DNA of 47,976 bases from positions 1-47,976 of the forward strand of contig DASPUT010000206.1 in NCBI GenBank assembly GCA_035622735.1. The letters run 5' to 3'. The notes under the pieces are model-generated. The model was not told the origin of the DNA. It saw only the letters and a list, made by a program, of their open reading frames with translations, and did no database searches. This stretch comes from Thermodesulfovibrionales bacterium (GTDB taxonomy: Bacteria > Nitrospirota > Thermodesulfovibrionia > Thermodesulfovibrionales > UBA9159). Shown one piece after another: positions 6,479-33,601 of this stretch (its first letter is position 1; each line of letters opens with the position of its first letter). Position numbers and translations under genes: made by a program.

Positions 6479-7972
6479 ATGAAACAAACCGAATCGAGCC
6501 AGGAACTCCACCACGAGATTTTCGGTTCAATTCTTGACAGAACCGAGATGACGCCCTTTCTCCTGCTGCCGGCGAGAGATTACAGAACAGCCCTTTCCCA
6601 GGCGAGCAAGATGATGGGCAATCGCGGTTTCGACATCCTCGATGACGCCGAACTTCAAGAGAGTGAAAAGAAGCGGGCAAGCCGGTATATCGAGTCTGTC
6701 TACCGGTACTTTCTCGACTGGCTCTTTCCTTTTGTGAGAAGGCAGTTGGAGGGCCTTGCCGCCCTGCAATCGACTAATGCCCAGTTGTATCGCGACTGTC
6801 TGCGCGCCATCGATGACATCGAGTCGGTCCTCATCAGCACTGAGTTCCGGCGCATCGTCAGCGAAGACCCTCGACATCTCTTCCTCCTCGCCTCATCGCG
6901 GAGATATCCGTATGTTTTCCATGGCTATGGGAGCAGGGATTTAGACGTCCCGGCCGTGTGGCAGGAGACCGCCTGCTCTCTGCTCAAAATGGGCCATCTC
7001 ATCAAGTCGGTGGAAGAAGACAGCCAGGATATCAACGATTATGCCCAGCTCGGCTTTTTTCTCGAGGCCCAAGGGCAGAGCCTTGACGACCTGTACCGGT
7101 ACGGCTGGGACAACCCGAAACATATCCCCGACAACGAGTCTGCCCAGAGGGCCTTCGTCAAAGTTTCGACATTCTTCCTCAAATTGAAGGAATCGGTGAC
7201 GTTCGATGAAGACAAGGGCTGCCTCGTCTTCAACAGCGGTGACGGGGTATCAGTCGATATTGCCGAGGTCAAGGCCAGGCTCAAGAGCCCCGAGAGCATG
7301 TTCACCAAACTCGGTAAGGATGTCGAGGGGGAGGCCTTTGATATCCGGGACATCCTGGCAATCACCTTTATCCTGAAGAGCAGGGACGACACCCTAAAGC
7401 TCTTTCATGCGCTCCAGAAAAGAGGCGTGATTCTGCAGGAAAACACCGCCTCTCATTCGATCACCCAGACCCTCTTCGATAACCCCGAGAGCATGCGGGA
7501 AGCGGTGAGACTGCTCATGGTCAGCCTTGCGCAGAGCGCAGGCAGCAACGAAACGCCGGCGGAGGAAGAGCTGGTTGCCAACGCCAAAACGTTCTACGAG
7601 GCCCTCGGTGCAAACGCTGTTCGAAACCTCCACTCTTCTCTCGGACATCGGAAGTTCCAGTGCAAGATCGCCTTCTCTCTGCCGATCCACTACACAGCGG
7701 ATACAAACGAAATCATGATCCCCGGCACGGCAGTCCACATAATGCGGGACCGGGTGCTCAAGAAAACCCAGCAGCACACGTTGGGCGTAGAGCTGCGCAT
7801 CTCCGACGAGCAGAGCTGGCGCGCTTCCGAACTCAAGGGAGACTCCCACCACGATGCTTACAAATTCCGCCAGCTCGTCTCGGTGATGAGCAGGGTCTTT
7901 GCCGATAGGTTTCGCTTGCCCAAAGAAAGCCTTCCGCAGTTGAGAAGAGACCAAGGAACTCTCTTCTCTTGA
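6479..7972 (+). CDS. RelA/SpoT-like fold protein of unknown function
   Basis: About 498 residues; the ATG at 6479 and a GTG at 6473 are both possible and neither has a good ribosome binding site. The first 250 residues are helical with no motif I know. The second half has features of the RelA/SpoT nucleotidyltransferase fold: VKARLKSPESMFTKLGK (near residue 270, compare the R-x-K-x-P-x-S core of (p)ppGpp synthetases), DIRDILAITFIL (DI-x-D-ilai pattern), and near residue 437 GVELRISDEQSWRASE followed by DAYKFRQ, comparable to VEIQIRT...AE...YK. The canonical catalytic acidic and EXXLQ residues are not clearly preserved, so synthetase activity is uncertain. It may belong to the family of deltaproteobacterial hypotheticals labelled TIGR04552 or similar; that is from memory and unverified. 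Confidence 0.6.
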   Translation: MKQTESSQELHHEIFGSILDRTEMTPFLLLPARDYRTALSQASKMMGNRGFDILDDAELQESEKKRASRYIESVYRYFLDWLFPFVRRQLEGLAALQSTNAQLYRDCLRAIDDIESVLISTEFRRIVSEDPRHLFLLASSRRYPYVFHGYGSRDLDVPAVWQETACSLLKMGHLIKSVEEDSQDINDYAQLGFFLEAQGQSLDDLYRYGWDNPKHIPDNESAQRAFVKVSTFFLKLKESVTFDEDKGCLVFNSGDGVSVDIAEVKARLKSPESMFTKLGKDVEGEAFDIRDILAITFILKSRDDTLKLFHALQKRGVILQENTASHSITQTLFDNPESMREAVRLLMVSLAQSAGSNETPAEEELVANAKTFYEALGANAVRNLHSSLGHRKFQCKIAFSLPIHYTADTNEIMIPGTAVHIMRDRVLKKTQQHTLGVELRISDEQSWRASELKGDSHHDAYKFRQLVSVMSRVFADRFRLPKESLPQLRRDQGTLFS

Positions 7973-11532: not shown

Positions 11533-12345
11533 TCAGATATGATTCCCCAGCCACGCTGAGGCCGCCATCAAGAAAAGTATTTCCGATATTTCGGTCATCG
11601 CACCGAAATTGTCACCGGTGAGCCCACCGAACTTCCTGAGACAAAAATGTCCGGAGAGGAGGCTGAAGATATAGAGGCCGAACAAGATGGTCCCCGCAAA
11701 CGCCACGCTTTTCGCGCCGTAGGCCGCAAAGAGATATAATCTTCCCACGAGGAGATATAGGGCGACTACTACAAACGTCGAGAGAAACACATGGAGCGGC
11801 CTCACATTATCCAGGAAGATCCGGCCGAGCCCATCTTTGCGGGCAGGGATACCGTGACTCATCGCGGGCACCGTCACCCATTTCGAAAATGCAGGCATCA
11901 GAAATACCAAGCATAGTGCAGCGTTGAGGGGGACCGAATGAAACAATGCGTTCAGGAGGACATATTTCATGAGCAGCGTCGCTGCCATCGTGATGGCCCC
12001 GATCGCGCCAATGGTGCTGCCCTTCATCACCGTCAACCTCTTCTCAACATCTATCGCCTGATCACCGGTGGCTTTGACCGCGAGCGCATCAAAGGTGTCG
12101 ATGAGCCCGTCCATGTCGAATCCGCCACTTGTGAGGAGCCCGGCGATAATGACGATTCCGCTCACGACGTCAGGCCCGAATATCTGGAGAGCCGCGAGCC
12201 CTGTAATTGCGATAAGGAGTCCTTGAATCGCGCCGGCCAACGGGAAGAATATCGTCGCTCCAGCAAGATCCATATCAGAAACCTCGCCCCTCACCTTTAC
12301 CGGCAGTATCGTGAGAAACTGTAATGCGAGCAGCATCTGCTTCAT
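11533..12345 (-). CDS. cobS: Adenosylcobinamide-GDP ribazoletransferase (cobalamin synthase)
   Basis: 270 residues, highly hydrophobic with 6-7 membrane segments. CobS joins adenosylcobinamide-GDP to alpha-ribazole (or its phosphate) to make adenosylcobalamin (phosphate) at the inner membrane. Family marks are the N-terminal ALQFLTILPV, the metal-binding GGFDMDGLIDTFDAL near residue 85-100, and GGLTGDNFGAMTEI near the end. Its ATG follows the cobT stop codon with no gap (TAAATG), so translation is coupled. It is the last gene of the riboswitch-led minus-strand operon and performs the final assembly step using the base made by the upstream genes. Confidence 0.96.
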   Translation of the reverse strand: MKQMLLALQFLTILPVKVRGEVSDMDLAGATIFFPLAGAIQGLLIAITGLAALQIFGPDVVSGIVIIAGLLTSGGFDMDGLIDTFDALAVKATGDQAIDVEKRLTVMKGSTIGAIGAITMAATLLMKYVLLNALFHSVPLNAALCLVFLMPAFSKWVTVPAMSHGIPARKDGLGRIFLDNVRPLHVFLSTFVVVALYLLVGRLYLFAAYGAKSVAFAGTILFGLYIFSLLSGHFCLRKFGGLTGDNFGAMTEISEILFLMAASAWLGNHI

Positions 12346-13407
12346 TTAATGCAGGATCTCATCGGAGACACCGGCCTCAGCAAAGGTCGCCATCTCACGG
12401 TATATCTTCAGCCCCGCTTCTATGATCGTCATCGCAAGCGCCGCGCCCGTTCCCTCTCCAAGCCTCAGATCGAGGTCAAGGATCGGCCTCAGTCCCATCT
12501 TTGCGAGCATCGCCTTATGCCCTCTCTCTACAGAGTTATGGGCAGCGAACAGGTAGTCCTTCGTCTTCGGTTCGAGACAGTATGCGAGAAGTGCTCCTGC
12601 GGTTGATATAAAACCGTCTATCACCACCGGGATGCGGTTCGATGCGGCACCGAGCACCAAACCGGCGATGCCGCCGATCTCGGCGCCCCCCACTTTCGAA
12701 AGGACATCAAGGGCATCAGTCGAATCGGGCTTGTTCAACCGAACCGCGCCTTCAATCACCTCGATCTTTCTCCGCAAAGATTCATCGGATATGCCTGTCC
12801 CCTTACCCGTAACTTCGGAAACGGGCCTGCCGGTCAGCACAGAGGCGATAGCACTCGAAGGTGTTGTATTTCCTATCCCCATGTCGCCGGTGCCGAAGAT
12901 CTGATATCCCTCTTTCGCGTAGCTGTCCGCAAGCTCTATCCCGATTTCGAGGCACCGTAACGCCTCCTGTCTCGTCATTGCCGGACCTTTCAGAAAATTC
13001 TTCGTCCCCCTCACGGCCTTCATCTTCGTGAGGCCTTCGGCCTCGGCAAAGTCATGATCAACACCGATGTCCACGACGACGATCTCGGCCCCTGCGTGAC
13101 GGGCAAGGACATTGATGCCGGCTCCGCCCCTGAGGAAGTTGAACACCATCTGAGCGGTAACTTCCTTCGGATAGGCGGATACCCCTTCCTGTACCACCCC
13201 GTGGTCTCCGGCGAATGTGAAGACAACCTTCTTTTCGAGGATTGGGTTCCTGTTCCGGGTGATCGCGACGAGCCTCCTTGCAAACTCCTCGAGCCTACCG
13301 AGACTTCCCGGCGGCTTGGTGAGATTGTCAAGCCGCTTCTGCGCCTCTTCGTACATCGCCCTGTCCACCGGCCTGATGTTCTTCACTCTTTCGGTTACAA
13401 CATCCAT
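12346..13407 (-). CDS. cobT: Nicotinate-nucleotide--dimethylbenzimidazole phosphoribosyltransferase
   Basis: 353 residues, the usual length. CobT transfers phosphoribose from nicotinate mononucleotide to a lower-ligand base, giving alpha-ribazole phosphate. Visible family features: [15 protein letters not shown] near the start, [16 protein letters not shown] (substrate site), [32 protein letters not shown] and the catalytic region [14 protein letters not shown] ribosome binding site GGGGAGAG precedes the ATG. It lies between the ThiC-family gene (71 bases upstream) and cobS (no gap). In bza operons of anaerobes cobT sits with the base-making genes, which fits this neighbourhood. Confidence 0.97.
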
Positions 13408-13478: not shown

Positions 13479-14780
13479 CTACCCCTTATCCGAGCCCGCC
13501 ATGTCCCTCTCGAACATGCCGCGGAGAATATCGTTGGCACAGAACTTTCCGCACATGGTGCATGAATGTTCATCGCCGTTGCCTCGCCTGTCCTTTATTT
13601 CCTTCGCTCTCTCGGCGTCTATTGCAAGCGAGAATTGGGTGGACCACTGCATGTCCCGTCTCGCCTTCGACATCACTTTGTCCTTCTGCATGTTCTTATG
13701 CTTTATCATGTCGCCCACGTGCGCGGCAATTCTCGAAGCGATGACCCCTTCACGCACATCTTCGGGGAAAGGCAGGCCGAGGTGCTCGGATGGCGTCACA
13801 TAGCATATGAAATCAGCACCGTAGGACGAAGAGAGCGCTGCCCCGATGGCAGCCGTAATATGGTCATAACCGGGCGCGATGTCGGTCGTGATCGGCCCGA
13901 GCATGTAAAAAGGAGACTCGCCGCTCATCTTTTTCTCCATAATGATATTCGCCTCTATCTCGTTGATCGGGATATGCCCGGGGCCTTCGACCATCGTCTG
14001 GCACCCGGTCTCTCTGCCGGTCTCGGCAAGTTCGCAATTTATGAGAAGCTCCTGGATCTGGACCCTGTCGGTCGCATCGTGGATCGCGCCTGCCCGGAAA
14101 CCGTTGCCGAGGCTCAGGACCGTATCATGCTTTTTCAGTATCGCGGCTACCCTGTCGAAATGCTCATAGAGAGGGTTCTCCCTATTGTTATGCTCCATCC
14201 ACGCGACCATGTAAGAGCCGCCCTTTGATACGAGCCCGCCGTAACGGTAGTGCTGCTTCCTGAGCATCTCGACAGTCCTTCTGTTAATGCCGCAGTGGAT
14301 CGCCATGAAGGCCACACCCTCTTCGCACTGTTTCTCAGTGATCTCGAAGAGGAGCTCCGCCGGCATATTGACTGCCGCACCGTATTTCTCTATCGCAATC
14401 GCAAAGGCCTCATAGAGGGGGACCGTTCCGACGGGAAGGCTTATCGCCTCCATGACCGCCCTCCTGATGCCGGTAATGTCACCGCCGACACTCAGGTCCA
14501 TGAGTGTGTCAGCCCCGTATTTTTCGGCCACCAGCGCCTTTTCGACTTCCATCCGGATGTCGGCGATGTCGGTGGATGTGCCTATCGATGCGTTTACCTT
14601 TGTCCTGAGCCCCTTGCCGATGCCGACGTTCTTCTGCCTTCTGTTCCTGTTGGCAGGGATGACGATCTTTCCGGACGCCACACGGCTCCTCACCGTTTCC
14701 ACATCCACCCCCTCGGCCGTTCCAACTGTCCTGATCTCTTCTGTCACTTCTCCCTTTGCAGCTCTTTCGAGTTGTGTCAT
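13479..14780 (-). CDS. bzaF: 5-hydroxybenzimidazole synthase BzaF (ThiC superfamily), likely; ThiC is the alternative
   Basis: 433 residues from the ATG at 14780 (ribosome binding site GGAGGAGAAC). The radical SAM ThiC fold is clear: GIGKGLRTKVNASIGTS, GGDITGIRR, VEGPGHIP, APGYDHITAAIGAA and the C-terminal cluster motif CTMCGKFC (residues 407-414). Canonical ThiC makes HMP phosphate from AIR; the paralogue BzaF makes 5-hydroxybenzimidazole from the same substrate. I favour BzaF for two reasons. First, the ThiC motif GDGLRPG reads GNGFRAG here (residues 225-231). Second, it lies in a cobalamin-riboswitch operon with cobT, cobS, a methyltransferase and two B12 radical SAM enzymes, and no TPP riboswitch precedes it. 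Other thiamin genes are absent from the window. Assignment is inference; an earlier GTG-type start is less likely. Confidence 0.75.
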   Translation of the reverse strand: MTQLERAAKGEVTEEIRTVGTAEGVDVETVRSRVASGKIVIPANRNRRQKNVGIGKGLRTKVNASIGTSTDIADIRMEVEKALVAEKYGADTLMDLSVGGDITGIRRAVMEAISLPVGTVPLYEAFAIAIEKYGAAVNMPAELLFEITEKQCEEGVAFMAIHCGINRRTVEMLRKQHYRYGGLVSKGGSYMVAWMEHNNRENPLYEHFDRVAAILKKHDTVLSLGNGFRAGAIHDATDRVQIQELLINCELAETGRETGCQTMVEGPGHIPINEIEANIIMEKKMSGESPFYMLGPITTDIAPGYDHITAAIGAALSSSYGADFICYVTPSEHLGLPFPEDVREGVIASRIAAHVGDMIKHKNMQKDKVMSKARRDMQWSTQFSLAIDAERAKEIKDRRGNGDEHSCTMCGKFCANDILRGMFERDMAGSDKG

Positions 14781-14871
14781 GTTCTCCTCCTTCCGAAATG
14801 TACCCGTCACGCGCGGGTCAAAAGAAAATCCTTCACCGTTTTATTCAGCCTCTATCCCTAACGATAAGGGT

Positions 14872-16383
14872 TCATACCGATACCGTCTTTACTAACCCGG
14901 TGATCTTCCTTCCCGTATCCTGAACGACAGACGCTATCCCAGCCGCGTCCATCCCCTCCCCCGATTCGAGGGTCCGAAGGCTTTCATCAAATATATTCAC
15001 CAGCAACTGATTTACCTCTCGATACTTTTCCCGCATGCCAGGCGACTCGATGACCTTTCCGTTCCAGATCTCCTCCATGCAGGTAAAAAGAATATTCGTG
15101 ATCTGTCTCATGATATCGGCAAGCACTGCCACTTCCGGTGATCTGAAATAGGCCGTGCCTTCATAAGGGGAAGCCTGCACTGTCTCAAGACGGTCGTCGC
15201 GCCTGAGATTTTGGTAGGCCTCGGTTCCCTCCAGGATAATCTGGTGGTGGTAGAGCACATTCGCGGTGACAGCCAGATTCTTCAGCAGGTCGTTTCTCCT
15301 GAGGAATTCAAAATTAGTGCGGATATCTGCCAATGAAGAGTCGGGCTCAAACATAATGAAGCCCACATTCGGCTCGATCCCGTGTCTCCTGAGTATCTTG
15401 AGCGCCTGCTCGTTCTGGGCCACGGTCGTCATCTTTCTCATCCTCCTCAGTGACTCGTCCCTGCCGCTCTCAAGACCGATGAGGATATGACGAAGCCCTG
15501 CCTCGACCAGCGGTCCGATCACGCCATCATGGATATCGTTCACGCGGGCCTCGATGCCGAAGCGGATATTTCGCGGCCGCAGAAGGGAAGCGATGCGCAA
15601 AGCCCTCTCCTGGCCTCTCTGACCGGGACCGAAGAAATTCGGGTCTGTAAAATAGAAATCCCTCGCTCCCTTCTCGGACATTATCGCGTCTATCTCCTTG
15701 ACAATATTTTCAGGGCTCCTCCAGCGCCAGGGCGCTCCTTGACCATAAAAGGAATTTATATAGCAGAAGGTGCACCTCCCGTAGCATCCCCTGCTCCCAA
15801 GGAGGTTCACCTCGTCCAGACGATAAAGGGCCTCCGTCCGAACCGGGAAGGGCAGGAGATCGAGGTCATCAACCGGCCTCCGCTTCAGACACTTGATGCC
15901 GCCTGATCCATCCCGGAAGGCGAGTCCCGGAACGGGAGGCACGTGAGCGCCCCGCGACAGATGTTCAGCCAGACCCGCAAAGGGCATCTCGGGCTCACCG
16001 GTGATGACCGAATCTACCGCCCGGCATCTTCTCAGAATATCCTCGAATGCGATCGTCGGATAGAACCCAAAGGCGGTTATCGTGAGGGCCGGTCTTTCGC
16101 TCTTCACCCGTTCGAGAAAATCGAAGAGCGCCAGGTCGGTTTTCCAGTGGTAAACCATATGCACTCCCAGGATATCCGGCCTGAATGCAGCTGTGATGCT
16201 CCTAATCTCTTCATAGGAAAGTCTGTCAAGGTATCCCTCGATTATCTCGACCTCATGCCCCCTGCTGATCAACATCCCCGCGGCATAGCCGGTGAGAAGG
16301 CACGAGGACAGAGGCGTGTTTGCGATGTCATTGCACCGCTCTGGCGCAACGCTCCTCGGATGTTCAAGGAAAAGTATCCTCAC
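14872..16383 (-). CDS. B12-binding radical SAM enzyme, BzaD/BzaE-like
   Basis: 503 residues from a GTG at 16383 that overlaps the stop of the preceding radical SAM gene (GTGA). The N-terminal 150 residues look like a cobalamin-binding Rossmann domain (ILFLEHPR.., GYAAGMLISRGHEVEIIEG, DILGVHMVYHW). The radical SAM cluster motif is C200-x3-C204-x2-C207 (CYGRCTFCY), followed by FYFTDPNFFG and GLESGRDESLRRM. A C-terminal helical extension of about 120 residues follows the barrel. In the known anaerobic dimethylbenzimidazole pathway BzaD and BzaE carry out C-methylation steps on 5-methoxybenzimidazole; this protein is a candidate for one of them. Which one cannot be decided here. Confidence 0.75.
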   Translation of the reverse strand: MRILFLEHPRSVAPERCNDIANTPLSSCLLTGYAAGMLISRGHEVEIIEGYLDRLSYEEIRSITAAFRPDILGVHMVYHWKTDLALFDFLERVKSERPALTITAFGFYPTIAFEDILRRCRAVDSVITGEPEMPFAGLAEHLSRGAHVPPVPGLAFRDGSGGIKCLKRRPVDDLDLLPFPVRTEALYRLDEVNLLGSRGCYGRCTFCYINSFYGQGAPWRWRSPENIVKEIDAIMSEKGARDFYFTDPNFFGPGQRGQERALRIASLLRPRNIRFGIEARVNDIHDGVIGPLVEAGLRHILIGLESGRDESLRRMRKMTTVAQNEQALKILRRHGIEPNVGFIMFEPDSSLADIRTNFEFLRRNDLLKNLAVTANVLYHHQIILEGTEAYQNLRRDDRLETVQASPYEGTAYFRSPEVAVLADIMRQITNILFTCMEEIWNGKVIESPGMREKYREVNQLLVNIFDESLRTLESGEGMDAAGIASVVQDTGRKITGLVKTVSV

Positions 16384-17702
16384 CGGACCTCCTGCCAGAT
16401 GAATGTGTTATTGCAGAAATGGAGCGTCTCGAGCCTGTACCGCAGCGTATCGAAGGGCGCCGGGTTGTAATAGGTCGGATAGAGAAGGTCGGTCCCGTTG
16501 CCGATGACCCCTTCGCTTCTCGCCCTCTTTTCTATGGCCGTTCCCGGCAAGATGCGTATGTTATTAAGAACGACCGTCCCGAGGTTCTTCCGTACGCGGT
16601 GCAGATCATAGAGCCGCTCGATCATACGCGCCCCCTTTTGAGCCGTCGTCTCGGTCTCGCCGGGCACATTCGCCATGAAGTGGTATACACTTATCACATC
16701 GGTTTTAGAGGCGATCCTCGCCGCTTTGAATATGTCTTCTTCATCAAGTCTCTTCCCGAGCGCGACGAGGGATTCCTGACAGAGACCGTCCGGAGAAAAC
16801 GAAAAACACTCGCATCCCGCCTTCTCGAAGAGCGAGGCGTTCCTGTCGTTGAACTGATCCTCTCTCATGAAGCCGTCCCATCTCACCTTCAGCTTCCTGC
16901 GAAGGATCTCGCCGCAAATCTCTTCGAGATGGCCCCGCGGGATATTCACCACGGGGTCTGTGAAATGGAAACTCTCTATACCGTACTCTTTGTGAAGGAA
17001 CTCCATTTCATCCACAACCGATGCAGGGGGCCGGCACCTGACCCTTTTCCCCTGAAGTTTGGGGTAGACACAATAGGAGCATTCATAGGGACATCCGCGT
17101 TTTGTTTCAATGCCGACGGCAGGGACGTAGGTGTTTATATTGAGATAGCGGGAAGGATCGAGTACGCTCCTATCGGGGGGGACGTATCGGGACATGTCGA
17201 GATCGCGGGAAGGGAGAGCGATGCTTATTCTCCCGTCTTTTCGAGTGCAGAGACCCTTCAACGAAGGCGGATTATCGAGAGAACGAAGAAGGCGTGGGAA
17301 AGTCAGCTCCGCTTCTCCGATGAGGCCGTAGCGTATTTCAGGCAGGTCGCGCATCAGCCGCTCCGGGAAAAGAGCAAATCCCGTCCCGCCCGCGACGATA
17401 CATGCCTTCGGCAGGATTGATGAGACGAGGCGGACGGTCGCGACGAAATGCGGGATAAGGGAGGCCGTTTTATTGCCCAGTGGATCGATGTTTCTCAGGG
17501 ATAACCCAACGACGTCCGGGCAGAAGGTGAGAAGTCTTTCTTTGAGCAGCGTGAAGGGGTCCTGGTGGAGGTTCATATCGATGATATCCACCTCCCGACC
17601 GGAATCGATGAGACGGCTCGCGAGAGATACAATACCGATAGGGTAAACCTTTTCGGATGAAACGCTCTCGACCGAAGGAGTCTGGACCATGAGCACACGC
17701 AT
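16380..17702 (-). CDS. B12-binding radical SAM enzyme, BzaD/BzaE-like
   Basis: 440 residues from the ATG at 17702, with GGAG upstream inside the end of the methyltransferase gene (five-base gap). A longer in-frame reading upstream lies within the methyltransferase gene and is rejected. The N-terminal part (residues 1-145) is a B12-binding-like domain: VLMVQTPSV, PIGIVSLASRLIDSGREVDIIDMN, VAGGTGFALFPE. The radical SAM motif is C204-x3-C208-x2-C211 (CPYECSYC), then FHFTDPVVNIPRGHLEEIC. It overlaps the next gene by four bases. With that gene it forms a pair of B12 radical SAM enzymes, as in bza operons; specific step not assigned. Confidence 0.75.
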   Translation of the reverse strand: MRVLMVQTPSVESVSSEKVYPIGIVSLASRLIDSGREVDIIDMNLHQDPFTLLKERLLTFCPDVVGLSLRNIDPLGNKTASLIPHFVATVRLVSSILPKACIVAGGTGFALFPERLMRDLPEIRYGLIGEAELTFPRLLRSLDNPPSLKGLCTRKDGRISIALPSRDLDMSRYVPPDRSVLDPSRYLNINTYVPAVGIETKRGCPYECSYCVYPKLQGKRVRCRPPASVVDEMEFLHKEYGIESFHFTDPVVNIPRGHLEEICGEILRRKLKVRWDGFMREDQFNDRNASLFEKAGCECFSFSPDGLCQESLVALGKRLDEEDIFKAARIASKTDVISVYHFMANVPGETETTAQKGARMIERLYDLHRVRKNLGTVVLNNIRILPGTAIEKRARSEGVIGNGTDLLYPTYYNPAPFDTLRYRLETLHFCNNTFIWQEVR

Positions 17703-17707
17703 GTCTT

Positions 17708-19315
17708 TTACTCCAAGAGGAGAAGACCGTAATATTTCACGAAGTCTCCTCTTCTTTCCAATGTCCTGAGTCTGCCTCCCGCATTCCTGACCGTTTCGAA
17801 GACATCTATTCCAGCGGCCTCCATGGAAGGCCTCGCCTCTTTTGTGTTGCGGCATGTCCCGTCCGTAGTGCAGGAACTGCAGAGGGAGCATGGACCCGCC
17901 CAAAAGGCAAAGGCCTTATAAAAACCAGCCTTGAATGCCTCTTTTTCCGCCTCCAGTACCCTCAGCTGGAACTCCCTTGTCGGAGGCTCACCTTCCAACA
18001 AGATGGCATGACGGTAATCGGCGAGAATCTTTCTCGTCTTTTCAGGAGGAACAGAAAAGGGGGGGCAATGGGGCTTTCCGTAATGTCCACAACCATACCG
18101 GCAGCGGGAATCGGTCCAATCGGCAACATGGATGCTTCCGACAGAGATTACCTTCGCACCGCGGAACCCAAGATCCCCGAGCCTCGCGGTGAGACGGGTT
18201 TTCGGGTCAAGACGAAGTTCCGTCAGCCTCTCACTGGTTCTCGAAGCTATGATGAGAGCGGTATCTGTGCCGAGCGGTATGAGACCCGTCGTGTAGAGTC
18301 TCAGGGCTTCCAACTCTTCTTTCATCGGCAGACATGAAAAGACCCTTCCGTTATAGGTATTAATAAACATGTTCAGGTCGAAGAGGGCCGCCTTTTCAGG
18401 GTAATGCTCAAGAAAGAAGTCATGGATCACAAGGAACCCTTGCTGGTTAAGGCAACGTGAGGCAGAGGCTAGTATATGGGGGAGTTCTTTTTCGGAATAG
18501 GCATGAATGATGTTCGAGAGTACGACAAGGTCGTATCGCTCCGCATCTTCCGGCCATGGTTCGAGGATATTTGCGGCGGTGAAAGACGACCTCTCGCCCA
18601 ACCCTCGTTCTTGTATCAACTCCCTTGTATAATCGAGAACCTCCGGAATATCAATAAGGGTGGCCTTCAGGAAAGGCATCTGGCTGAGAAATCCTACTGC
18701 TATGGCACCGGACCCGGCCCCGATATCGAGCATCTTTCCGTCAAAGGAAAGGCCTTCAAAGAGGGGAAGAATCTCCTTCACCTTTGTCCGAGCGATACAG
18801 TCCATGGCGTTGATGTATCGTCGTATCCCCTCTGCTCTTTCACTGTCATCCGAGGAGTCATTCCCGGCCCGACCGCCCGACCTCAGGCAATCTTTCAGTC
18901 CGGTCCACTTCGAAAAGAGCTCCTTGCGCCATAGGATGGAATTGCCCTGATACTTCTCCTTGCCGATTACGAGGTATTCACTCGCTATCTTCGAGTTGTA
19001 ATACTGTGAACCGTCACGGATCACAAGCTTGAGGGCGCAAAGGGCACCGAGGAATCTCTCCAGTCCTCCGGGATCAAAATCGAAAGCATCAGAAAGTTCG
19101 TGAAGGCCGTTGCTTCCCGAATCGAGACGCGTAAAGACCCTGGTTTCGACGGCGGTGAAGAGGACCTCTGAAAACCAATACCCTGTGGCGAGATCTTCAA
19201 GATACTGGGGACCTCTGTCCTGAGGGTCCGGATTCAGGTGCGGGAGCCCGTGATCCCTCAATAATGAAAGATCCTTAGAGCTCTTGCCCGGAAGATTGCG
19301 TCCTGCGTCTTTCAT
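17708..19315 (-). CDS. O-methyltransferase (BzaC-like) fused to DUF2284 metal-binding domain
   Basis: 535 residues; ribosome binding site AGGAGG eight bases before the ATG. Residues about 35-125 resemble the dimerisation domain of plant/bacterial O-methyltransferases (YWFSEVLFTAVETRVFTRLD, winged-helix style). Residues about 180-355 are the SAM-binding part with MLDIGAGSGAIAV, ATLIDIPEV, SNIIHAYSE and the general-base region VIHDFFLEHYPE. From about residue 375 a second domain follows with the cysteine pattern of DUF2284: CRYGCGHYGKPHCPPFS, then GPCSLCSSCTTDGTC and CRNTKEARPSMEAAGIDVFET. BzaC in the anaerobic pathway methylates 5-hydroxybenzimidazole. The fusion is unusual and its second domain has no role I can assign; an iron-sulphur or zinc site is plausible. 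First gene of the operon after the riboswitch and leader terminator. Confidence 0.8.
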   Translation of the reverse strand: MKDAGRNLPGKSSKDLSLLRDHGLPHLNPDPQDRGPQYLEDLATGYWFSEVLFTAVETRVFTRLDSGSNGLHELSDAFDFDPGGLERFLGALCALKLVIRDGSQYYNSKIASEYLVIGKEKYQGNSILWRKELFSKWTGLKDCLRSGGRAGNDSSDDSERAEGIRRYINAMDCIARTKVKEILPLFEGLSFDGKMLDIGAGSGAIAVGFLSQMPFLKATLIDIPEVLDYTRELIQERGLGERSSFTAANILEPWPEDAERYDLVVLSNIIHAYSEKELPHILASASRCLNQQGFLVIHDFFLEHYPEKAALFDLNMFINTYNGRVFSCLPMKEELEALRLYTTGLIPLGTDTALIIASRTSERLTELRLDPKTRLTARLGDLGFRGAKVISVGSIHVADWTDSRCRYGCGHYGKPHCPPFSVPPEKTRKILADYRHAILLEGEPPTREFQLRVLEAEKEAFKAGFYKAFAFWAGPCSLCSSCTTDGTCRNTKEARPSMEAAGIDVFETVRNAGGRLRTLERRGDFVKYYGLLLLE

Positions 19316-19391: not shown

Positions 19392-19410
19392 GTTCGTTCT
19401 TTCAGGGCTA

Positions 19411-19585
19411 CGGTACAGGCAGGTCTTCTGGCTTCCGGATCTTCCTACTCACCGGCCTTCCCGTCCCGATAGTTCGGGACAGTGACATCTTCGGCTTTCG
19501 TACCCGGTTACAGCGGCGGGCCCGCTCCCGATTCGGCCTTTGCAGCCCCACGGGATTCCCTATTACGCACAAAGCACCTGTAACG
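19411..19585 (-). promoter_or_regulatory. Cobalamin riboswitch
   Basis: The minus-strand transcript has the conserved core in order: AATAGGGAATC, GGGGCTGCA, CCGCTGTAACCGGG, and the B12 box AGCCAGAAGACCTGCCT. The ends TACAGG and CCTGTA can form P1. A perfect hairpin GTCCCGA/TCGGGAC sits in the variable region before the B12 box. It is followed 20 bases later by the leader terminator and then the methyltransferase gene, so it should reduce expression of the six-gene operon when adenosylcobalamin is abundant. Confidence 0.93.
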
Positions 19586-19592
19586 CTCCTAT

Positions 19593-19621
19593 TGTATATC
19601 CATCAATCACCTTTTTGTCAA
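19593..19621 (-). promoter_or_regulatory. Sigma70-type promoter of the cobalamin operon
   Basis: On the minus strand a perfect -35 hexamer TTGACA (19621-19616) is followed by 17 bases and the -10 hexamer TATACA (19598-19593). Transcription would begin at the edge of the riboswitch P1 stem, as expected for a riboswitch leader. Confidence 0.8.
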
Positions 19622-22664: not shown

Positions 22665-22718
22665 ACGCAAAAGGAAGGGTTGGTCTCTCAGAAGAATTCA
22701 GAATACGGGGAGGAGAAG

Positions 22719-23447
22719 ATGACGAAATTCAGTTGCAATCTCTGCGGTGCCGTATGGCAGAAGGAAGGCAAGACAAACTGCTGGAGCGCCGATCCTGCCG
22801 AGGCTCCTGCCAAGCCGGCCCATTGCCCTTCGAGAACGCATATGGAGAAGATCAACGAAAGCTTCGATATCTATAAGGGCAATGGCGTGGATGCGAAGAT
22901 CGCGCGCGTCGCCACCCGCGTCGAAGGCCTCTGCTACGAGCCCGTCCCCGGCAGCAATGCAGTCCATGCCCGCTGGACCCGCGTTGAGGACACGATCGCC
23001 TTTGCCAAACTGATGGGGTATCGGAAGATAGGGATCGCCACCTGCATCGGCCTGCTGGATGAGACGAACCGTCTCTCCCTTATCCTGAAGGCTCAGGGGT
23101 TCGAGCCGCTCTCTGTCTGCTGCAAAAGCGGCAGCAAAGACAAGCTCGATCTCGGCGTTGAAGAGAAGGACAAGGTGCGGCCCGGGACCTTCGAGCCGGC
23201 GTGCAATCCGATCGCCCAGGCGAGGCTCTTGAATGAAGAGGGGACAGACATGAACATCATCGTCGGCCTCTGTGTCGGCCACGACATGCTCTTCAGCAAA
23301 CACTCTGCCGCTCCGGTCACGACTCTCGTCGTCAAAGACAGGGTGACAGGCCACAACCCGGCGAGCGTGCTCTACGGCCAGAACTTCTACTACCGCCGAC
23401 TCCAGACCGAACAGGTTGAGACTACCCACAGAAAGAGACGCGCTTAG
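22719..23447 (+). CDS. DUF1847 cysteine-rich metal-binding protein
   Basis: 242 residues from the ATG at 22719 (ribosome binding site GGGGAGGAG; earlier in-frame starts lack one). The start MTKFSCNLCGAVW contains a CxxC, and cysteines continue through NCWSAD, HCPSRTH, LCYEP, ATCIGLLDE, VCCKSG, FEPACNP and GLCVGHDMLF. The spacing and the phrases GYRKIGIATCIGLLDE and ACNPIAQARLLNEEGTD are those of the DUF1847 family, found mostly in anaerobes. The conserved cysteines suggest an iron-sulphur or other metal centre; no reaction is established. It lies 32 bases before a DUF2277 gene, in the same direction. Confidence 0.88.
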   Translation: MTKFSCNLCGAVWQKEGKTNCWSADPAEAPAKPAHCPSRTHMEKINESFDIYKGNGVDAKIARVATRVEGLCYEPVPGSNAVHARWTRVEDTIAFAKLMGYRKIGIATCIGLLDETNRLSLILKAQGFEPLSVCCKSGSKDKLDLGVEEKDKVRPGTFEPACNPIAQARLLNEEGTDMNIIVGLCVGHDMLFSKHSAAPVTTLVVKDRVTGHNPASVLYGQNFYYRRLQTEQVETTHRKRRA

Positions 23448-29656: not shown

Positions 29657-31048
29657 TCACCCTAAGGCCTCCCGTACCCTCATAACGAGAGCCGGGACCT
29701 CTCCGTTCCCCACGGTTCTCGGGTCGATGATGAGCGAGCCCTCTTTGATCCTCGCGATGACGGGAGGCTCGCCGTTTCGCAGCCTCTCTTCCATTTCATG
29801 AACCGGGATATGTTCGGACCTGAGCGAGACCACGTAGGTCTTGAACCCCTTTTCCGGTAAAGAGCCCCCGCCTGCCTGGGATGAATCTTCAAGGATATCT
29901 ATGACCGCGCCTCTGATCGTCCGCCTGAGGAGTGCGGCGATCTTCTTCGCCCTCCCCTTTATCTCCTCGGGGTCTTCGAGGATCATCTTCAGCGTCGGTA
30001 TGTACTCTCGCGCGCGCTCCTCATCGGTATACTCCATGAGGGTAGCCTCAAGTGCGGCAAGGGTGAGTTTATCGATCCTCACCGCTCTCGTGAGGGGATT
30101 CCTCTGTATCCGTTCGATGAGCTCCCGCCTGCCGACGATCACCCCGGACTGAGGCCCGCCGAGGAGTTTGTCTCCGCTGAAGGTGACGAGATCCGCCCCG
30201 CTCTTCACGATCTCCTGGACCGTTGGTTCCGAATGTATCCCGTGGGGTCTGAGGTCTATGAGACAACCGCTGCCAAGGTCATACATGACGGGCAGTCCGC
30301 GGCCGCGGCCGAAGGCGACGAGCCTCTCTATCGGTACGTCCTCCGTAAATCCGATGATCCGGTAATTCGACTGATGGACCTTGAGGACGAGGGCCGTAGC
30401 GTCCGTCACCGTCTTCTCGTAGTCGTGGAGATGGGTCTTATTCGTCGTTCCGACTTCTCTCAGCATCGCCCCGCTCGATGCCATCACATCGGGGATCCTG
30501 AAAGAACCTCCTATCTCGACTAATTCGCCGCGGGAGACGATCACCTCTCTCCCCCTGGCAAGGGTGCTCAGACAGAGGAGGACCGCTGCGGCGTTGTTGT
30601 TCACGGCAAAGCCGTCTTCGGCGCCGGTAATCTCCCTCAGGAGTCTCCTGATGTGGGCGTATCGCTTGCCCCTCCTCCCGGCCGCGAGATCGTATTCGAG
30701 GTTCGAATAGCCGACAGCCACGTTCTTTACATGTTCCATGACCCGATCGGAGAGAACGGACCGGCCGAGGTTCGTATGGATGACTATTCCCGTCGCATTG
30801 ATGACGGATCTGAGGCTGTACGCGGTCAGGCTTTTCACCTTCGTCTCGATGTCCGGCACCATGCCTTGAAGGGAAGTCTCCGCGGTCAGGCCTTCGAGGA
30901 TCTCCCTCCTCCTCAGGTCGAGCACCTCCCTGATCGCCTGAAGTACATACCTTCGCGGATGGGTTTCCAGCCACTCCGCCCCGGACGGGCTCCTGAGGAC
31001 CTCGTCAACAGAGGGGAGATTTGCCAAGAGCTCCTGCCTACCGGTCAT
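29657..31048 (-). CDS. selA: L-seryl-tRNA(Sec) selenium transferase
   Basis: 463 residues, family length. SelA converts Ser-tRNA(Sec) to Sec-tRNA(Sec) with selenophosphate. The N-terminal helical domain binds tRNA (LPSVDEVLRSPSGAEWLETHPR), and the PLP domain carries INATGIVIHTNLGRSVLS, NNNAAAVLLCLSTLARGREVIVSRGELVEIGGSFRIP (in pieces) and TFSGDKLLGGPQSGVIVG with the PLP-binding lysine. A ribosome binding site GGAGCGAAGAGG precedes the ATG. It lies 12 bases after an OsmC-family gene, which diverges from selB; together they form a small selenium unit. Confidence 0.97.
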   Translation of the reverse strand: MTGRQELLANLPSVDEVLRSPSGAEWLETHPRRYVLQAIREVLDLRRREILEGLTAETSLQGMVPDIETKVKSLTAYSLRSVINATGIVIHTNLGRSVLSDRVMEHVKNVAVGYSNLEYDLAAGRRGKRYAHIRRLLREITGAEDGFAVNNNAAAVLLCLSTLARGREVIVSRGELVEIGGSFRIPDVMASSGAMLREVGTTNKTHLHDYEKTVTDATALVLKVHQSNYRIIGFTEDVPIERLVAFGRGRGLPVMYDLGSGCLIDLRPHGIHSEPTVQEIVKSGADLVTFSGDKLLGGPQSGVIVGRRELIERIQRNPLTRAVRIDKLTLAALEATLMEYTDEERAREYIPTLKMILEDPEEIKGRAKKIAALLRRTIRGAVIDILEDSSQAGGGSLPEKGFKTYVVSLRSEHIPVHEMEERLRNGEPPVIARIKEGSLIIDPRTVGNGEVPALVMRVREALG

Positions 31049-31726: not shown

Positions 31727-33601
31727 ATGCGTTACGTGATACTCGGCACCGCAGGACACATCGATCATGGAAAGAGCTCCCTCGTGAAGGCGCTCACCGG
31801 CATCGACCCTGACCGCCTGAAAGAGGAAAAGGAGCGGGGGATCACGATCGACCTCGGATTTGCCGACCTCACCTACCCCGACGGCCTTACCGTCGGGATC
31901 GTTGACGTGCCCGGACACGAGAGACTGGTGAGGAACATGCTTGCCGGCGCAGGAGGAATCGACCTCGTGCTCCTCGTCATCGCCGCCGACGAAGGGATCA
32001 TGCCCCAGAGCCGTGAACACCTCGCCATCTGCAACCTCCTGAAAATCAAATCGGGTCTCATCGCGATCACGAAGGCGGACCTAGTGGAAAAGGACTGGCT
32101 CGACCTCGTTGCCGACGAGGTGAGGGATTTTGTGAAGGGCACATTCCTTGACGGAGCGGAGGTCATCCCGGTATCATCGAGAACCGGTATTAACCTCGAC
32201 CTCCTCAGGGAGAGGATCCATCATGCCGCCCTCACCGTAGAGCCGAAACCGGTGAAAGAGATCTCCCGGCTTCCGATAGACAGGGTCTTCACGATGAAGG
32301 GTTTCGGTACGGTCGTGACAGGGACCCTCTTTTCGGGGACCCTTTCCGTTGACGAACCGGTTGAGATACTCCCCTCGGGCCTGACGAGCAAGGTGAGGGG
32401 TCTTCATAGCCACGGGAAAGCGATGACGAGCGTTTACGCGGGCCAGCGTGTGGCGATAAACCTCCAGGGCGTAGACAAGGACGCCTTAAAGCGCGGAGAC
32501 GTTGTCGTCACCCCGAAAAAAGTCAGCCCGACGAGGCTTATCGACGCGCGCATCGAGCTCCTACCGGATTCCCCGGCGGTGAAGAGCAAGGGTCTTGTCC
32601 ACCTCCATATGGCGACGTCCGAAACGATCGCGCGGGTGGTCCTCTACGACCAGGAGGAGCTGAAACCGGGGGACTCCTCTTACTGCCAGCTCCGCCTCGA
32701 CGAGCCGGTCGTCACTTTTTCGGGCGACAGGTTTGTTGTCCGGCGTTTTTCCCCGGTCATTACCATAGGAGGCGGAACGGTACTCGATCCTTCCCCGGCA
32801 AGGAGAAGAAGGAAGGAAGGGACGGAGGACCTTGAAGTCATCGAGCGCGGGTCCCTCGCCGATAAGATAGCGATGAAGGTAAAGAAGTCGGGGCTCAAGG
32901 GTGCCGATGCCGCGACGATCATCGGCTGGATAAAGGCGGAGATACCCGCCATCGAGGGTGCGATAAGCCTCCTGAAAAAGGAGTCGGTACTCGTGAAGCT
33001 CGACAGCAAGCTCTTCCATCGCATCATCTATAATGCCCTCTCGGAGAAGATCACCGGCGCACTCTCGGAGTTCCATAAGGCAAATCCCCTCAGTCCCGGG
33101 ATGCCGAAGGAGGAGCTGCGGGCCCAGGCGAGGGTGAACCAGGATATCTGGAGCAGTCTGCTCGCCTCTCTCGAGACAATAGCCCTCGATAAGGATGTCG
33201 TGCGTCTCAGGAACTTCAGGGTTGCATCTTCCGATGCCGATGTCTCATCTCAGAAAGTTCTCAGGATTCTCGAAAAGGACCGTTTCCAGCCATCGGACAA
33301 GGAGGAACTGGCAGCGGCCCTTTCCCTTTCCCCGAAGGTGGTTGCCGACGTCCTGAAATTGCTGAGCACGGAAGGAAAACTCGTAAGGATCCATGACTCA
33401 CTCTATCTCCCGGCGACGCTCTATGCAGAGATGCTCTCGCTGCTCAAGGCATTCTTTTCGAAACAGCCGACGATGACGATCGCGGAATTCAGAGACATCC
33501 TCGGCACCACGCGAAAGTACGCCCTGCCTTTCCTTGAATACCTGGACTCTCACAAGATTACTCTCCGGGTGGGGGACGTGAGAAAGCTTCTCCTGAAGTA
33601 G
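31727..33601 (+). CDS. selB: Selenocysteine-specific elongation factor
   Basis: 624 residues. SelB delivers Sec-tRNA to UGA codons that carry a SECIS hairpin. The GTPase region shows [33 protein letters not shown] and TKADL, then domain II/III ([26 protein letters not shown]), and four winged-helix-type repeats in the C-terminal 250 residues (for example [17 protein letters not shown] and [22 protein letters not shown], which ends with the conserved SelB signature). No good ribosome binding site precedes the ATG. Its stop is seven bases from tRNA-Phe on the other strand. Confidence 0.96.

Follow-up and report, generated by a model that had tools for sequence, protein, structure and literature searches.

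What does a cysteine-rich domain of the DUF2284 family do at the end of a methyltransferase that heads an operon for the lower ligand of cobamides? The question is raised by a 535-residue open reading frame at positions 17708–19315, minus strand, of the window, that is, the whole stretch of 47,976 nucleotides from a Thermodesulfovibrionales bacterium analysed here. As described in the initial annotation, an O-methyltransferase with a dimerisation domain runs on in frame into DUF2284. Three Pfam domains lie above their cut-offs in this uninterrupted frame, all on the minus strand: the dimerisation domain (residues 32–116, 18968–19222; PF08100, 45 bits, cut-off 25.6), the SAM-dependent O-methyltransferase domain Methyltransf_2 with an intact SAM motif, LDIGAGSGA (residues 165–324, 18344–18823; PF00891, 54 bits, cut-off 22.3), and DUF2284 (residues 388–534, 17714–18154; PF10050, 124 bits, cut-off 25). 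The cysteine-bearing stretches CRYGCGHYGKPHCPP and CSLCSSCTTDGTC are both present in the frame. The first cysteine motif, C405-x3-C409-x7-C417 (CRYGCGHYGKPHCPP), occupies 18059–18103 and the second, C476-x2-C479-x2-C482-x5-C488, lies at 17852–17890, again on the minus strand. A missed stop between the domains, as well as a frameshift or an assembly artefact, is ruled out because the architecture and its continuous frame recur in 69 distinct full-length sequences of three phyla (the window's own counted); the others are 32–63% identical to the window's protein.

The fusion gene is the first of the operon bzaC-bzaD-bzaE-bzaF-cobT-cobS, whose members all lie on the minus strand, and its start codon is found about 85 bases behind a cobalamin riboswitch (19401–19596, minus strand; Rfam RF00174, 115.2 bits, E 2.7e-28, gathering score 31.5). 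It is followed by bzaD, for a B12-binding radical SAM C-methyltransferase (16380–17702, start set by alignment; TIGR04385, 680 bits, equivalog cut-off 450), and by bzaE, for a B12-binding radical SAM protein (14872–16383; assigned with Pfam, and 49–52% identical to the gene in the bzaE position of Eubacterium/Acetobacterium-type operons). Further downstream are a ThiC paralogue (13479–14810; PF01964, 608 bits), cobT (12346–13407; TIGR03160, 470 bits, cut-off 319) and cobS (11533–12345; PF02654, 133 bits, cut-off 23). The ThiC paralogue scores above the general ThiC cut-offs and below that of BzaB, and the name bzaF rests on position; it is best read as bzaF because it shares 85–88% identity with its counterparts in three related bza operons and 62% with that in a fourth, versus 47% with the second ThiC of the window's genome, on contig C177. 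This genome comprises 2.6 Mb in 264 contigs and is 95% complete. The bza region of one relative (L027) has two cobalamin riboswitches (7057–7241 and 17455–17655); as one of the two separates bzaE from bzaF, this operon may be two units. In the window itself, 3.4 kb from the operon, a DUF1847 protein is encoded (22680–23447, plus strand), which belongs to a small cysteine-bearing family without assigned function.

The functions of all the proteins discussed here are assigned by homology and position. The anaerobic benzimidazole pathway, which has AIR as its precursor, was worked out in Eubacterium limosum. The window's protein combines the dimerisation domain with a class I O-methyltransferase and an intact SAM motif, and a ThiC-like bza synthase, cobT, bzaD and bzaE are encoded alongside it under the cobalamin riboswitch, in agreement with the earlier view of a BzaC-type methyltransferase heading a cobamide-base operon. 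Across both domains it is 44–46% identical to the gene in the bzaC position of two chromosomes that carry the fusion in a bza operon, one of 4,422,837 bp, which we take to be that of E. limosum ATCC 8486, and one of 4,044,777 bp, presumably that of Acetobacterium woodii DSM 1030. The BzaC of E. limosum probably also carries the DUF2284 fusion. On this comparison the window's protein should be BzaC, predicted to O-methylate 5-hydroxybenzimidazole or its ribotide.

The fusion had been regarded as unusual; instead, nearly every bza operon read that has bzaE carries it, so that a BzaC with this extension appears to be the usual one where 5,6-dimethylbenzimidazole is made. In the order and the phylum of the window's organism, every genome with a full-length homologue (at least about 50% identity) has the fusion beside bzaE, and bzaD scores above its cut-off in 8 of the 296 genomes searched there, all eight with the fusion. 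A scan of named genomes for bzaD yielded 52 loci in Nitrospirota, Bacillota (among them Desulfosporosinus, Paradesulfitobacterium, Syntrophaceticus, Anaerovirgula and Alkalibaculum) and Thermodesulfobacteriota, and the order OMT-DUF2284, bzaD, bzaE is present in nearly all of those in which the contig extends over the gene, the remainder being broken or without bzaE. A fusion unique to this organism is thus ruled out. Co-occurrence with bzaF, bzaD and bzaE, proposed with the initial annotation as a check, proved positive, and the tie of DUF2284 to benzimidazole chemistry stands. In Desulfosporosinus, purE (AIR carboxylase) lies between bzaB and bzaC (L094, 8359–8859; L110, 5349–5849), the place of cobT in most other Bacillota operons.

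The domain itself shows strong and distinctive conservation. In 61 of 61 aligned DUF2284 sequences, distant standalone ones included, C405, C409, C417, C476, C479, C482, E499 and V505 are invariant, and C488 is present in at least 90%; six invariant cysteines make the metal or iron–sulphur site suggested earlier for the domain plausible. Pfam at relaxed cut-offs revealed no other convincing family in these 61 sequences, and a sequence search of the PDB gave no solved homologue of DUF2284. The AlphaFold2 model of the entire fusion chain has a pLDDT of 90 and a pTM of 0.86; its Foldseek matches cover the methyltransferase part only, with class I O-methyltransferases as the nearest solved structures. 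When the DUF2284 domain was modelled in isolation (pLDDT 91), the best match was epoxyqueuosine reductase, followed by the reductive dehalogenase NpRdhA and nitroreductases. As these consistently form one fold group, the domain could be envisaged as a small cobamide-binding reductase related in fold to QueG and reductive dehalogenases, which would take the oxygen off the aromatic ring ahead of, or in the course of, methylation by BzaE. None of the matches is strong, however (the best has E 0.07 and TM 0.45, with an rmsd of about 6 Å), and neither Pfam nor the PDB gives a sequence match to such families. The domain thus shows no significant structural or sequence match to the QueG/RdhA-like cobamide reductases, and we regard this reading as very improbable; the predicted resemblance, too weak for a claim of homology, is kept as a structural hint.

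Another reading of the fusion is that DUF2284 serves the methyltransferase itself, through stability, a metal site, substrate binding or regiospecificity, and has no role for BzaE. Its fusion to BzaC in most genomes would fit such a service, but standalone BzaC with intact methyltransferase motifs is found in several lineages. Two genomes, G590 and G566, encode DUF2284 as a free-standing protein of 188 and 197 aa, whose gene is flanked by bzaE and a standalone methyltransferase gene in an operon preceded by a cobalamin riboswitch. Ten Acetobacterium-like genomes and G380 have a bzaC that lacks the fusion; there, DUF2284 resides on a separate BzaC-like protein encoded elsewhere, in whose body the SAM motif is destroyed (from LDVGxGSGA to ILIGGPGAQT and similar). 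The domain is almost unchanged on these dead methyltransferases. When seven Acetobacterium-like dead copies were compared with live Eubacteriales fusions, the dead-to-live identity, as a share of the live-to-live level, was 97% for DUF2284, 77% for the dimerisation domain and 43% for the methyltransferase core, which is partly deleted in the dead copies of G380 and of Dehalobacter-like genomes. The retention of the dimerisation domain in the dead copies may be counted in favour of a service to the methyltransferase; the near-constancy of DUF2284 on bodies that have lost the SAM motif, its existence as a separate gene and its loss along with bzaE while bzaC stays (see below) argue against it. 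We therefore consider it rather unlikely that the domain works for the methyltransferase, a reading that the standalone BzaC genes and the dead-methyltransferase proteins contradict.

The dead-BzaC forms arose three times in the DUF2284 tree, each time within the bza clade, and no second copy of this kind was found, at the search cut-off, in fused genomes of the same order as the Acetobacterium-like ones. Switches between the fused and the unfused state are complementary in all four independent cases (p 0.125), the domain being supplied in trans where bzaC lacks it. In the Acetobacterium-like genomes the trans copy is encoded apart from the bza operon and, in three of the five loci read (L231, L233 and L242), is divergent from a cobalamin riboswitch just upstream; what links it to BzaE is therefore complementary presence together with, in those three loci, this riboswitch neighbourhood. 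In L231, a UbiD-type decarboxylase and an operon for a CbiQ-type transporter are encoded on the opposite strand.

If not bzaC, which gene does the domain accompany? Using the fusion and BzaE as queries, we scored presence and absence in 466 genomes (399 from the phylum to which Syntrophaceticus belongs and 67 from the order that includes Alkalibaculum). Both bzaE and a bza-type DUF2284 are found in 56 genomes, bzaE alone in 4, DUF2284 alone in 6 and neither in 400; the corresponding Fisher p of 2e-60, uncorrected for kinship, is only descriptive because the genomes are related. The four genomes with bzaE alone are fragmentary or incomplete assemblies: G393 has broken genes, G738 is a 2.7 Mb assembly, and in G760 and G762 the contigs end before or within bzaC. 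Among the six with DUF2284 alone, the gene lies at a contig edge in G421 and is a chimeric relic in G551, and a dead-BzaC–DUF2284 protein is kept in G715 and in three Dehalobacter-like genomes, the latter being the main counter-example. In the Dehalobacter-like genomes the protein can be a relic or have another task. In G495, which we take to be Dehalobacter restrictus, and in G520 (L152 and L155), the gene has hydantoinase genes in its neighbourhood, together with genes for a UbiX-like flavoprotein and an amino-acid permease, in a genome without bzaE.

The losses are informative in this regard. Desulfosporosinus SbF1 and MAG_BO167 have intact bzaD and bzaC methyltransferase, and their genomes lack bzaE altogether; an in-gene deletion took most of DUF2284, whose last residues remain as an out-of-frame remnant, and ordinary standalone DUF2284 proteins are still encoded. 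G684 and G326 have bzaAB and a bzaC of about 355–370 aa, with bzaD and DUF2284 absent from the regions read and bzaE absent genome-wide. According to the methyltransferase-domain tree, these are three independent bzaE-less lineages (SbF1/MAG_BO167, G684 and G326), and DUF2284 was lost alongside in all three (sign test, p 0.25). Conversely, DUF2284 is kept where bzaE occurs without bzaD, in the whole genome of G041 and, by the regions read, in G704 and G590/G566. The bza operons concerned (L031, L157 and L229/L230, respectively) are predicted to lead to 5-methylbenzimidazole, not to the dimethyl compound, and a bza route to 5-methylbenzimidazole through bzaE without bzaD is not known to have been described.

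DUF2284 thus seems to follow bzaE, and neither the chemistry of bzaC nor bzaD, a pattern that is apparently new. A role for all B12 radical SAM enzymes and a role in the BzaC reaction are both disfavoured by the lineages with BzaD and no BzaE, on the one hand, and with BzaE and no BzaD, on the other. The initial annotation had proposed a hand-over to the radical SAM enzymes that follow in the operon; the present comparison narrows this to a link with BzaE, not with radical SAM enzymes in general, since one lineage retains BzaD in the absence of DUF2284 and others retain DUF2284 in the absence of BzaD. The independent events, three losses and four switches, are too few for formal significance, and with just three losses of bzaE it could be argued that the domain is a hitch-hiker, i.e., that adjacent sequence decays at random once dimethylbenzimidazole synthesis stops and that the role of DUF2284 is unrelated. 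The persistence of dead-BzaC–DUF2284 in Dehalobacter-like genomes without bzaE would be compatible with this, as would the piecemeal decay of other bza operons (Desulfosporosinus lacus, G551 and G393). Two of these have shrunk by in-frame or junction deletions to chimeric relics, BzaA-CobT-DUF2284 in G551 (L154) and BzaC-BzaD in D. lacus (L117). Random decay nevertheless leaves unexplained the complementary supply in trans in four of four cases, the nearly unaltered DUF2284 of the dead scaffolds and the dedicated DUF2284 gene beside bzaE in G590/G566, and we consider hitch-hiking quite improbable.

Comparison of more than 400 genomes thus suggests that DUF2284 is an unrecognised partner of BzaE, and functional coupling between the two is, in our judgement, probable, in spite of the domain being fused to BzaC and not to BzaE. 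BzaE was assigned by genetics, and we know of no mechanism for the exchange of methoxy for methyl in the final step of anaerobic B12 lower-ligand synthesis. BzaC would put the methoxy group on the ring through O-methylation of 5-hydroxybenzimidazole or its ribotide, and BzaD, a plain C-methylation, would not need DUF2284. The replacement of methoxy by methyl through BzaE would amount to a net reductive cleavage of the aryl C–O bond; as the oxygen is thereby removed reductively, a dedicated redox partner would be a natural need. One or two iron–sulphur clusters, held by the seven cysteines of DUF2284, would be the simplest meaning of a cysteine set conserved across 61 sequences; from there the domain may provide BzaE with electrons, or with a reduced metal site, during the replacement, and fusion to the dimeric BzaC would hold it near the substrate. 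That DUF2284 acts as the electron donor of BzaE is offered tentatively. In the literature, BzaE is presented as the dimethylbenzimidazole synthase of anaerobes (PMC8620254). This synthase could conceivably be a two-component enzyme, in which BzaE needs a redox Fe–S protein, DUF2284, that rides on BzaC, on a dead BzaC or alone, a proposal that we put at somewhat short of an even chance.

The domain might instead act passively, docking BzaC to BzaE and handing over 5-methoxy-6-methylbenzimidazole or its ribotide, with its cysteines in a structural role, for example, binding zinc. Such a hand-over would fit a domain that is fused to the upstream enzyme and tracks BzaE, and the dimerisation domain retained in the dead copies could pair them with a live BzaC. 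Against it, the six cysteines and the glutamate are invariant throughout the family, also outside cobamide synthesis, which suggests a common metal chemistry, and the small separate gene of G590/G566 has no dimerisation domain. A purely passive domain is accordingly deemed unlikely. If the coupling of a redox DUF2284 to BzaE is true, the domain would be a missing component of the last anaerobic lower-ligand step, which is of relevance for reconstituting BzaE alone; the two-component synthase would explain how an aryl C–O bond is cleaved free of oxygen, and the widespread DUF2284 family would receive its first assigned function. It would also provide a simple genome marker to tell true B12 producers from makers of methoxybenzimidazole cobamides.

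The initial annotation knew DUF2284 only as a separate small protein; methyltransferase-type proteins with a C-terminal DUF2284 of another kind are, however, already described in NCBIfam, namely NF041536 (arsenite methyltransferase/DUF2284 selenoprotein) and NF045648 (MbdU). These contain selenocysteine. The window's protein scores far below their cut-offs (104 of 575 and 101 of 600 bits); with 103.6 bits against the cut-off of 575 and no in-frame TGA in its reading frame, it falls outside ArsM_DUF2284_UU (NF041536). SelA (29657–31048, minus strand) and SelB (31727–33601, plus strand) are encoded in the window, so the selenocysteine machinery is present in its genome, and relatives have DUF2284 proteins with an in-frame TGA, whose sequences form a clade apart from the bza type. 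In two loci (L029, 11231–11725, of G005; L093, 8227–8721), the bza cluster includes, between bzaE and bzaF, a gene for an additional DUF2284 protein; it has an in-frame TGA and is probably of the ArsM-DUF2284 selenoprotein type. Standalone DUF2284 proteins (COG5423-type) share the Pfam family and the six invariant cysteines with the window's domain, itself above the PF10050 gathering score, although they are only 19–31% identical to it and persist in those Desulfosporosinus genomes from which the bza-type domain has gone; the window's genome encodes one further DUF2284 protein, which is standalone. The cobalamin-dependent epoxyqueuosine reductase QueG and the reductive dehalogenases are likewise cysteine-rich and perform reductive chemistry, their resemblance to DUF2284 being limited to a weak predicted-fold similarity. 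The literature that we searched, which is that outside the primary BzaC/bza papers (PNAS 2015, JBC 2020), leaves the DUF2284 part of BzaC unmentioned and, as far as we found there, the reading of DUF2284 as a separable redox partner linked to BzaE is unpublished. The closest systems are those of E. limosum, A. woodii and Moorella thermoacetica, whose BzaC shares with the window's protein the O-methyltransferase with its dimerisation domain and an operon with ThiC paralogue(s), cobT, bzaD and bzaE; the window differs from them in having bzaF in place of bzaAB.
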